DNA of 5,165 nt. Source: Actinomycetota bacterium (GTDB taxonomy: Bacteria; Actinomycetota; Acidimicrobiia; Acidimicrobiales; Microtrichaceae). The notes beneath the pieces are model-generated. The model saw nothing but the letters and a program-made list of their open reading frames with translations. It had not been told where the DNA came from and ran no database searches. Positions 1,273 to 4,924 of this stretch are shown here, one piece after another. The DNA is taken from assembly GCA_018268735.1 (NCBI GenBank), contig JAFDWA010000155.1, positions 1-5,165 of the forward strand, written 5' to 3'. A program made the position numbers and the translations under genes. The number at the start of each line of letters is the position of its first letter. The first letter of the stretch is position 1.

Positions 1273-1328
1273 CTACAGCACAGGACTACTCCGGCACAGG
1301 ACTACTCCGGCACCGGACTACTTCGACG
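1263..1328 (+). repeat. 16-bp degenerate tandem repeat array, copy A (4 units)
   Basis: Units begin at 1263, 1281, 1297 and 1313. Each has a CAGGAC-like hexamer (ccggac, caggac, caggac, ccggac) followed by a spacer. The spacer is 12 bases in the first unit (cctgctacagca) and 10 in the others (tactccggca twice, then tacttcgacg). The two middle units are identical. The last unit covers the stop codon and final residues of the minus-strand GlsB-like gene. The same unit architecture recurs at 4264..4377. There are no unique spacers and no transposase, so this is neither a CRISPR array nor an insertion sequence. I do not recognise the family. Confidence 0.75.
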
Positions 1329-1572
1329 TGCGCGAGTCGATCGCCCGCCAGATCAGCAGCACGATCACGGCACCGACGAACGAGCCGATCAGCCCGCTCG
1401 GGCGGGGCTCCAGCCCCTCGCCGGAGATGAGGCTGCCGAGCGTCCCACCCACGAACGACCCCACGAGGCCGGCGATCAACGACTGCGCGTTGGGACGGGT
1501 GCCCATGCCCAGCACGACCTGGCCGAGCCAGCCGACGAGCATTCCGAAGACGATGATTCCGAGGATCAGCAC
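1318..1572 (-). CDS. GlsB/YeaQ/YmgE-family small membrane protein (transglycosylase-associated type)
   Basis: This is an 84-residue, glycine-rich, very hydrophobic protein with three predicted membrane segments at about residues 2-21, 31-50 and 58-76 and a short charged end (RAIDSRTSK). Size, triple-helix layout and glycine-rich spacing (GLVGSFVGGTLGSLISG) match the Transgly_assoc family, whose members are linked to envelope and general stress responses; no enzymatic activity is established. It starts with GTG at 1572, 11 bases after the stop of the MOSC gene, so co-transcription is likely. A TANNNT box overlapping that upstream stop codon could also give it its own leaderless transcript. Its TAG stop and last residues lie within the 16-bp repeat array, which is unusual and suggests that the 3' end was shaped by the repeat. 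Confidence 0.85.
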   Translation of the reverse strand: MLILGIIVFGMLVGWLGQVVLGMGTRPNAQSLIAGLVGSFVGGTLGSLISGEGLEPRPSGLIGSFVGAVIVLLIWRAIDSRTSK

Positions 1573-2657: not shown

Positions 2658-4214
2658 TCAGTCCGGAGGACCCGCGGTCAGCGTGACCGTGGCGGTGCGG
2701 CTCTGACCGTTCGGGTCGCTCCACGTGAGCGACACCTTGTCACCGGGCTTCGCGTTGGCGAGCGCAGTGGTGAGCGCCTCGGCCGAGGTGATGGACCTCC
2801 CGTCGAGCGCCGTGATCGTGGAACCGGCGACGAGTCCCGCGTTCTGGGCACCGGAGCCGTCAGCCACACCGGCCACCGCCGCACCGACGACCGCCTGCGC
2901 CGAACCCGAGGTCCCGAACGGGTCCGAGGAGTTCGACGTCACCTGCACGCCGAGCACCCCACGGGTGCCGATGTGCACCACGTCGCTCGCCTTGCCGGCC
3001 TTGATCTGCTCGACGATCCGCAGCGCGTCGTTGATCGGGATCGCGTAGCCCTCACCCTGCCCCGAGATCTGAGCGGAGGCCTGGTTGGTGACCGACGCTG
3101 CAGAGTTGACGGCGATGACCTCGCCGTTCGCGTTGGCGAGCGGACCGCCCGAGTCCCCGGGGACGATGTTGGCGTCGGTCTGGATCAGGTTGCTGAGGCG
3201 TTGCGACTCCTGCCCGCTCTGGTCGCTGGCAGTGATGCTGCGTCCGAGGGCGACGACATTGCCGGGGACGACCGACGGCCTGCCGCCCTTCCCTCCGGCG
3301 TTGCCGAGCGCGACGACCGGATCGCCGACCTTCACCGTGTCGGAGTTCCCGGTGCGGACCGTGGTGAGTCCCTTGGCACCGACCAGCTTGATGAGCGCGA
3401 CGTCCTTGGTGGGTGCGGTGCCCAGGACCTTGGCGTCGTATCGGTCACCGGTGTCGGCGTCGACGACGACCATGCGGGTCGAGCCACGCACGACGTGGTT
3501 GTTGGTCAGGACCAGCCCGTCGGAGGTGAGGATCATGCCGGTGCCCGCACCCTGGCCCTCGGCGGTCAGGACGTTGATGTTGACGACGCCCGGCGACACT
3601 GCGGCATCGACCTTGCCGACATCGATCGAACCGGTGGGTGTCGAGCCCTGCGTCCCGGTCCCGTTCTGGCTCTGACCCTGGTCGACGCCGGATGACCCGT
3701 TGGGGAACGTGGGATCGACGGGCAGCGACGAGGACCCGTTCGACCGATCGGTGGGGGTCGGCGCAAGCCGGGAGGTGCCGCTCGCGGCGCTCTGGTCACC
3801 GTCGGTGCTCCCGAGGCGGGCGAGGCCGAACCCACCGGCGAGCCCGGCGAGGAGCGCGAACACCAGGAGCAGCGCGATCGCGACGCCACGTCCACGGCCA
3901 TGGCCGTTCCGCGACGGCGGCGACGGCTCGGCGCCGAGCGGGTGCCATCCGCCGGGAGGTGCCATGCCGGGAGGCGGCGGACCGAGCGGGCCGACGGGGC
4001 CACCGGGGCCGCTCGGGGGCATCGACCAGCCCGACACGGTCGGGATGCGTCCGGTGGGTGCCTGCGGCACGCCCGGGAACGCAGGCGGGACGACCGGCGC
4101 GGTGGGCGGAGCCGGCACCGCAGCGCTGGGGGGTCCGAGCGGATACGTGCTCGATGGATCGCCCCATGCCGGGGTCGGGGCCGTCGTGGGATCGCCGTTT
4201 GACATGGGTTCCAT
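2658..4214 (-). CDS. HtrA/DegP-like S1C serine protease, membrane-anchored, with PDZ domain
   Basis: This is a 518-residue envelope quality-control protease. Residues 1-105 are a proline-rich cytoplasmic segment. A single transmembrane helix follows at about 111-134, then a low-complexity Ser/Thr/Gly/Asn/Gln linker to about 196, then a trypsin-like domain at about 200-405. The catalytic triad is visible: His240 in LTNNHVV, Asp271 in DVALIKL and Ser355 in VPGDSGGPL. GYAIPI (389-394) is the usual end of the protease domain. A PDZ domain covers about 417-515 (RGVLGVQV, AGLVAGSTITALDG). The layout matches actinobacterial HtrA/PepD proteins, which degrade or refold misfolded secreted proteins; all key residues are intact. 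ATG at 4205 (MSNGDPTT) is an equally plausible start because neither site has a clear Shine-Dalgarno. The 5' region is shared with the divergent arfB and contains a tandem-repeat array. A hairpin follows the stop. Confidence 0.95.
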   Translation of the reverse strand: MEPMSNGDPTTAPTPAWGDPSSTYPLGPPSAAVPAPPTAPVVPPAFPGVPQAPTGRIPTVSGWSMPPSGPGGPVGPLGPPPPGMAPPGGWHPLGAEPSPPSRNGHGRGRGVAIALLLVFALLAGLAGGFGLARLGSTDGDQSAASGTSRLAPTPTDRSNGSSSLPVDPTFPNGSSGVDQGQSQNGTGTQGSTPTGSIDVGKVDAAVSPGVVNINVLTAEGQGAGTGMILTSDGLVLTNNHVVRGSTRMVVVDADTGDRYDAKVLGTAPTKDVALIKLVGAKGLTTVRTGNSDTVKVGDPVVALGNAGGKGGRPSVVPGNVVALGRSITASDQSGQESQRLSNLIQTDANIVPGDSGGPLANANGEVIAVNSAASVTNQASAQISGQGEGYAIPINDALRIVEQIKAGKASDVVHIGTRGVLGVQVTSNSSDPFGTSGSAQAVVGAAVAGVADGSGAQNAGLVAGSTITALDGRSITSAEALTTALANAKPGDKVSLTWSDPNGQSRTATVTLTAGPPD

Positions 4215-4263
4215 GACACCCGCGATTCGTGAGGAACGGGTAAGCGTTGGCTGTGAGGACGCT

Positions 4264-4377
4264 GAGGACTGTGCTCTACCTCAGAACTGCTCTACCTCAG
4301 AACTGCCCCACCACGGGACAGCCCCACCACAGGACACCTGCAACTCAGGACACCTGCAACTCAGGACACCGCGATCC
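4264..4377 (+). repeat. 16-bp degenerate tandem repeat array, copy B (7 units)
   Basis: Hexamers start at 4264, 4282, 4298, 4314, 4330, 4346 and 4362. The first step is 18 bases; all later steps are exactly 16. They read gaggac, cagaac (twice), cgggac and caggac (three times). Spacers are tgtgctctacct (12 bases), tgctctacct, tgccccacca, agccccacca, acctgcaact (twice) and accgcgatcc. Neighbouring units resemble each other most, a sign of local duplication. Positions 9 and 15 of the unit are C in every 16-base unit. The period is not a multiple of three and the array lies in a divergent intergenic region, so it is not a coding repeat. It has the same orientation and the same 18-base first step as the array at 1263..1328. 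Confidence 0.85.
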
Positions 4378-4405
4378 CGGCTCGCTGGGAGTCGAGCGCC
4401 ACGTC

Positions 4406-4415
4406 CTGCATGCAG
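4406..4415. promoter_or_regulatory. 10-bp perfect palindrome upstream of arfB
   Basis: CTGCATGCAG is a perfect 10-bp dyad in the divergent gap between the protease and arfB, about 85 bases before the arfB start and about 190 bases before the protease start. It could be an operator half of either promoter region. A 10-bp palindrome is short enough to occur by chance. Confidence 0.2.
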
Positions 4416-4489
4416 TCCTACCACGACACCGCGGGACCGCGCAGCCGGGACCCGCCGGGCGGGCCGGCTGTCCGACGGCACCCCGACGG

Positions 4490-4495
4490 TACCCT
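4490..4495 (+). promoter_or_regulatory. Candidate leaderless -10 box for arfB
   Basis: TACCCT, a TANNNT match, is followed by six bases (ccccag) and GTG at 4502. This spacing equals that of the MOSC gene. It supports GTG as the true start rather than the long upstream extension, and agrees with the absence of a Shine-Dalgarno. No good -35 hexamer is visible. Confidence 0.5.
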
Positions 4496-4501
4496 CCCCA
4501 G

Positions 4502-4924
4502 GTGGCCGAACACGACGAGGCGCTGACGATCCGGCCGGGCCTCGTGGTCGCCGGGAGCGAGCTCGACGAGCGGTTCACCACGTCGGGCGGTCCCGGCGGC
4601 CAGCACGCCAACCGCTCGAGGACCCGGGTCGAACTGCGGATCGACCTCCGGCGTTGCACCACCTTCGACGACCACCAGCGATCGCTGCTCGTCGAGCGGT
4701 TCGGGACGGAGATCCGCGTCGTGGTCGACGACGAGCGATCCCAGATGCGCAACCGAGCACTCGCGCGGGAACGACTCGCCGCACGGATCCGAGGGGCGCT
4801 CGTCCCGCAGCGGACCAGGACGGCGACGAGAGCCACCCGGGCCTCCCAACGCAGACGGCTCGACGCGAAGGGCCGGCGCAGCGAGCTCAAGCAGCAGCGT
4901 CGACGGCCGACCGATCAGGACTGA
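4502..4924 (+). CDS. arfB: ArfB-type peptidyl-tRNA hydrolase (GGQ ribosome-rescue factor)
   Basis: This 140-residue, release-factor-like protein frees stalled ribosomes by hydrolysing peptidyl-tRNA without a stop codon. The catalytic core carries SGGPGGQHANRSRTRVELR (residues 28-46), with the GGQ at 32-34 that acts in the peptidyl-transferase centre. There is no codon-recognition domain. From about residue 103 the chain is a strongly basic, Ala/Arg-rich tail with the K-R-R-S-x-x-K-x-x-R pattern (about 123-133) used by ArfB to occupy the empty mRNA channel. Length equals that of E. coli ArfB (140 aa). The frame is open back to 4247, but that stretch reads through the 16-bp repeat array and has no homology-like sequence. 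GTG at 4502, with a TANNNT box 6 bases before it, is therefore the chosen start. The stop overlaps the convergent oxidoreductase by 10 bases. Confidence 0.9.
   Translation: MAEHDEALTIRPGLVVAGSELDERFTTSGGPGGQHANRSRTRVELRIDLRRCTTFDDHQRSLLVERFGTEIRVVVDDERSQMRNRALARERLAARIRGALVPQRTRTATRATRASQRRRLDAKGRRSELKQQRRRPTDQD

Follow-up and report, generated by a model that had tools for sequence, protein, structure and literature searches.

Bacterial minisatellites and non-coding satellites are described as short units set head-to-tail, often unique to the place where they occur (PMC6749651, PMC2884548). In the account given by PMC6749651, coding satellites of prokaryotes are linked to unit lengths that are multiples of three, and some satellites form scattered families. 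The array of 16-base units dealt with here, hosted in the gap between two divergent genes, resembles the non-coding elements in its short head-to-tail units, and differs from the scattered families in that it bears no sign of family membership; arrays located within genes in the genomes sampled below also keep to multiples of three, as coding satellites do (PMC6749651). CRISPRs are comparably regular in spacing, but the gap array consists of contiguous 16-base units devoid of unique spacers, and the preliminary description of this DNA had correctly set CRISPR aside. The loci commonly used for minisatellite typing are longer in total than the gap array. The reading favoured here, with a probability of about 0.85, is that one 16-base stretch was expanded in tandem by copying slippage in this lineage, where a conserved block has its upstream edge.

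The gap array and its setting

The source genome (G000; 2.93 Mb, 83% complete) is split into 767 contigs. The window, i.e. the whole stretch of 5,165 bases analysed, is its contig C61. Genes were predicted by a home-made caller that missed arfB and truncated the protease in the window, and window genes were therefore placed by hand in the gap analysis. The minus strand encodes an HtrA-like protease (2658..4205; Pfam domains Trypsin_2 and PDZ), the plus strand an RF-1 domain protein (4502..4924; domain match), called arfB-like after its earlier name. The divergent gap between them measures 296 bases. The protease probably starts at the ATG at 4205, rather than at 4214, because the orthologue from the same genus begins MSYGDPTTAP at the corresponding place. 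The array had been placed 50 bases upstream of the protease; with the probable ATG at 4205, its supposed beginning at 4264 is 59 bases upstream. Sigma-70 and terminator consensus sequences were sought in the 4150-4560 interval and not found, and no replication initiator gene was identified by Pfam among the six proteins of the window, the sixth of which had no match of any kind. The window also hosts a MOSC-domain gene, just upstream of which a 14-base stretch is tandemly duplicated (CGGACGCGACACCA, 1.9 copies, 2461-2487).

Six related 16-base units were recognized in the gap by TRF, self-match and unit comparison. Full units span 4275-4370 and the whole array 4272..4370, which TRF splits into three 16-base sub-arrays (4272-4306, 4294-4336 and 4330-4370). 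The self-match of the 4251-4385 segment is 0.68 at lag 16, against a mean of 0.28 and a maximum of 0.43 at the same lag in 2000 dinucleotide shuffles, none of which attained 0.68 at lags of 8-40. The tandem array first described is thus confirmed; it sits between genes and is indeed not a coding repeat. Six hexamers lie in 16-base register, at 4282 and 4298 (CAGAAC), 4314 (CGGGAC), and 4330, 4346 and 4362 (CAGGAC), only the last three being exact. The reported phasing of C residues holds as well, since positions 6, 9 and 15 are C in all six units, and position 12 in four of six. An extra hexamer noted at 4264 does exist (GAGGAC), but is not clearly a seventh unit, because it falls inside a block conserved in the same-genus relative.

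Read on the minus strand from distal to proximal (4370 to 4275), the units are GGTGTCCTGAGTTGCA twice, GGTGTCCTGTGGTGGG, GCTGTCCCGTGGTGGG, and GCAGTTCTGAGGTAGA twice. Two units are identical, two match at 14/16 positions, and two are again identical; across groups matches are 10-12/16. Adjacent units resemble each other most, a pattern suggesting that the array was duplicated in rounds and subsequently diverged. The unit at 4362 agrees with its neighbour over the first nine bases only. As in minisatellites, the units are arranged head-to-tail, lie with their 16 bases in the usual range of about 10-100, and carry mismatches.

One unit in a relative, six here

The search brought up no second genome of the species and a single one of the same genus (G001), whose protease is 65% identical to that of the window. 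The 80-base block before the protease (4205..4284, minus strand) is conserved in G001 at 65 of 80 bases, with an alignment score of 47 versus a shuffle maximum of 14, and the proximal unit of the array overlaps with its distal end, CTGAGGTAGAGCACAG. The 4306-4500 interval did not align to G001 (score 13, versus 20 for shuffles). At the far edge of the block, the proximal unit has a single counterpart in G001, CTGAGGTCGAGCACAG, identical at 15/16 positions; in keeping with a minisatellite, the unit is single at the orthologous place of the relative, versus six copies here. No 16-mer with at least 11 matches to units of the two distal groups was found in G001, where the lag-16 self-match is merely 0.32 and TRF detected no 16-base array; in a gapped alignment the remaining units fall mostly in gaps. 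The protease and arfB-like genes of G001 are still divergent, but lie about 8.4 kb apart.

Comparison with this one same-genus genome suggests that the array was gained here rather than lost in G001. Six units versus one match point to a likely ordinary expansion by copying slips, not to a new kind of element. A single 16-base stretch, ancestrally present at the upstream edge of the block, would have been brought to six units by slippage of DNA copying over several rounds; groups of units would then have diverged, leaving what may now be a decaying minisatellite devoid of any required function, regulation being plausibly carried by the conserved block. Also in favour of this reading are the findings that hexamers other than CAGGAC form 16-base arrays too, and that CAGGAC forms 17-base ones. 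Against it stand the lead of CAGGAC over control hexamers by number of places, the 23 matches (17 places) to the C-phased pattern versus 13 to its reverse, the retention of the word CTGAG in four of six units, and the fact that divergent gaps are poorer in arrays than expected. CTGAG, the reverse complement of CTCAG in the block, is contained in the copy common to G001, and is absent from two of the six units; its retention in the other four would fit selection.

TRF covered 7 of the 30 protease loci fetched, namely those of the source genome, G001 and five other relatives (G022, G012, G032, G027 and G039), and found no 16-base array in these last five. Such arrays were similarly missing from 29 arfB loci of relatives; in all, 38 relatives had an arfB match. 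Conservation of the array at orthologous promoters was accordingly not observed at six protease and 29 arfB loci of relatives. At some of these loci, tandem arrays of other periods were seen close behind the arfB-like gene, for example with units of 20 bases in G001 (L184, 1902-1981) and of 22 bases in G009 (L207, 1894-1991), positions being counted on the strand of the gene.

The conserved block and regulation

The block carries CTTACCCGkTCCTCAC. Within it, the operator-like word CTTACCCGTTCCTCA (4230..4244, minus strand), in which the half-words CTTAC and CTCAC are 11 bases apart, is a predicted regulator site. Searched as CTTACCSGNTYCTCA, the word was matched exactly four times in 25 genomes, 21 of which have no match. 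Three matches are located shortly before this same protease, in G000, G001 and G012; the remaining one, at G005:C242:36329, does not clearly precede any gene. The reversed word had no exact match in the 25 genomes. It is probably the conserved block, and not the array, that is the regulatory part of the gap.

MtrA is a response regulator of the OmpR family. The block, in contrast to the array, resembles operators of this family, those of MtrA included, in having a pair of direct half-words at a distance of 11 bases. In Streptomyces, the sites of MtrA are described as direct repeats of 5-6 bases with five bases between (PMC5650626). The half-words of the block, CTTACC and CTCACG, differ however from the MtrA consensus, and the block site is a sequence-based prediction. 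MprA was also considered as the regulator of the block and rejected, the motif given for Corynebacterium glutamicum, TKTTAAGAAM (PMC12113857), bearing no resemblance to it.

The array adjoins this operator-like block. Its units might multiply the half-sites of a regulator binding the block and, set on alternate faces of the DNA, tune protease expression, an alternative that is unlikely though the best of those considered. Sixteen bases correspond to about 1.5 helical turns. Four of six units carry the reverse complement of the CTCAG of the block, and the location of three of four exact operator matches before this protease is also in favour. Yet G001 keeps the block without the array, CTGAG is missing from two units, the other protease loci examined have no 16-base array, and arrays at large share no hexamer above chance. 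Somewhat less probable again is the bolder proposal that the expansion made the conserved inverted half-word CTGAG into a ladder of sites 1.5 turns apart, the number of units being an evolvable dial on the expression of a stress protease. Expansion by slippage is the preferred reading, and the array is in all likelihood a commonplace minisatellite in decay, whose extra units may have a regulatory use, though nothing in the data requires one.

Short arrays in this and other genomes

CAGGAC, and the recurrence of C at every third base, had been regarded as possible marks of a recurring element. This view was not borne out by control hexamers, by the reversed pattern or by a census of hexamers. 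Exact CAGGAC pairs 16 bases apart are found in three arrays of the source genome, the gap array, one at 1281 in the window and one in contig C745; the latter two differ from the gap array in the other ten bases of the unit. The one at 1281 (1278..1322 by TRF, 2.8 copies of the 16-base unit GCACAGGACTACTCCG), which the preliminary description did not list, overlaps the TAG that ends a glsB/yeaQ-like (Transgly_assoc) gene (1318-1572, minus strand). Behind the orthologue of this gene an unrelated 16-base array is present in G003 (L383), and none in G001, G002 and G015. In C745 (17043-17101, L163), 3.7 copies of the 16-base unit GACCGTCCTGACCGAC occupy much of a 77-base convergent gap. The preliminary description would have reduced the array to a chance local duplication had the genome contained no further copies and the gaps of relatives no array; the genome hosts two more CAGGAC arrays, and only the second half of the expectation held, the orthologous places examined being free of 16-base arrays.

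Hexamers present in three copies at 16-base steps, with at most one mismatch, were counted in 41 genomes along with controls of the same composition. Matches were found in 6/41 genomes for CAGGAC, 6/41 for GACCAG and 5/41 for AGCGAC. Inspected by eye, true 16-base arrays were seen at 7, 6 and 3 places, respectively; CAGGAC is slightly ahead because of its three places in the source genome, where the two controls have none. By appearance, true AGCGAC arrays are those of G019:C202, G024:C45 and G039:C7. The AGCGAC matches of G027 and G013 do not look like such arrays, and those in G019:C38 (AGCGAC) and G036 (CAGGAC) are 8-base repeats. At 17-base steps CAGGAC, the sole hexamer run at this spacing, was found in 4/41 genomes, at seven places. 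A 17-base array of CAGGACAGACCTTGAGA in G002 (C17:15067-15191) extends for seven steps with no more than one mismatch in the hexamers.

Of 397 genomes of the order, 16 contain the C-phased consensus (23 matches, or 17 places once overlaps are merged) and 13 its backwards control (13 matches, counted from the table). CAGGAC was present in 3 of 112 intergenic arrays taken from four genomes, versus 1.5 expected; one of the 3 is on G002:C4, and this contig had been retrieved on account of that array. The best hexamer of this set (p ~0.001) is unremarkable among some 2000 hexamers, and none is common to the 112 arrays beyond chance. The control hexamers and the hexamer census do not support CAGGAC as a genus- or order-wide motif, nor does the similar spread of the reversed pattern support an element with C at every third base. 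A scan of named genomes for the hexamer pattern returned at least 120 stretches, in records from many phyla; 80 loci were scored, and 128 of their 132 places had at least 6/10 inter-hexamer bases alike. Since these bases are mostly alike and the phyla many, such a search would mainly catch plain 16-base tandem repeats. Among the literature matches listed, no title, as judged from titles and the starts of abstracts, dealt with this repeat.

Two roles offered in the preliminary description are disfavoured by these and further data. A selfish or dispersed short repeat, spreading by its own sequence, is very improbable: the two additional 16-base CAGGAC arrays of the genome would suit it, but the whole array used as query found only itself in its own genome at E<=0.001, instead of the many places at which a REP- or MIRU-like unit would recur, the ten bases beside CAGGAC vary among places, and the C-phased pattern is hardly more widespread than its reverse. 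Just as improbable is an RNA element in the leader of the protease or arfB. CCTG and CAGG can pair inside the two distal units, as read from the sequence, but neither strand folds better than shuffles (z-scores of -0.05 for the minus and +0.49 for the plus strand), no Rfam match was found in the window at gathering scores, and the array, being distal to the predicted operator, is probably outside the protease transcript. Finally, assemblers may get the unit number of a short array wrong and the genome is incomplete and fragmented, but an assembly artefact is hardly credible, as the sub-arrays differ in sequence and an array of ~100 bases would be spanned by ordinary reads.

Arrays with units of 10-40 bases were surveyed by TRF in 519,863 bases of G000 and in 400-kb samples of G001, G002 and G035. 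The window and G000:C745, picked for the pattern, were left out, and G002:C4, similarly picked, was kept. Where TRF rows overlapped, the best one stood for all, and an array was counted only if it lay in a called gene or between two such genes. Intergenic arrays numbered 91 in 196 kb (0.46/kb), coding arrays 162 (0.11/kb). Unit length is divisible by three in 44/91 of the former versus 148/162 of the latter (Fisher p 5e-14). Both sets would be explained by a single duplication process on which the reading frame acts as a filter within genes. Units of 14-18 bases make up 21/25 of the intergenic arrays in G000, 16/31 in G002, 8/11 in G035 and 8/24 in G001. Pooled intergenic arrays are enriched in convergent gaps (20 versus 10.4 expected, p 0.005) and number 15 versus 25 expected in divergent ones; G001 by itself does not show the convergent enrichment (2 arrays). 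The idea that arrays are tied to stop codons, suggested by the overlap of several of them with gene ends and by their excess in convergent gaps, fails for the gap array, because its gap is divergent.

On the comparisons made, the array is beyond a chance match and short of a system, and belongs with the local tandem duplications that are common in these genomes. Ordinary in itself, it provides, with the relative, a before-and-after pair of some use, one unit there and six here. The census indicates that in the four sampled genomes the density of arrays between genes is roughly four times that within genes, where units are mostly multiples of three. The conserved operator-like word, almost confined to the region before this protease, offers a more promising lead than the array does.
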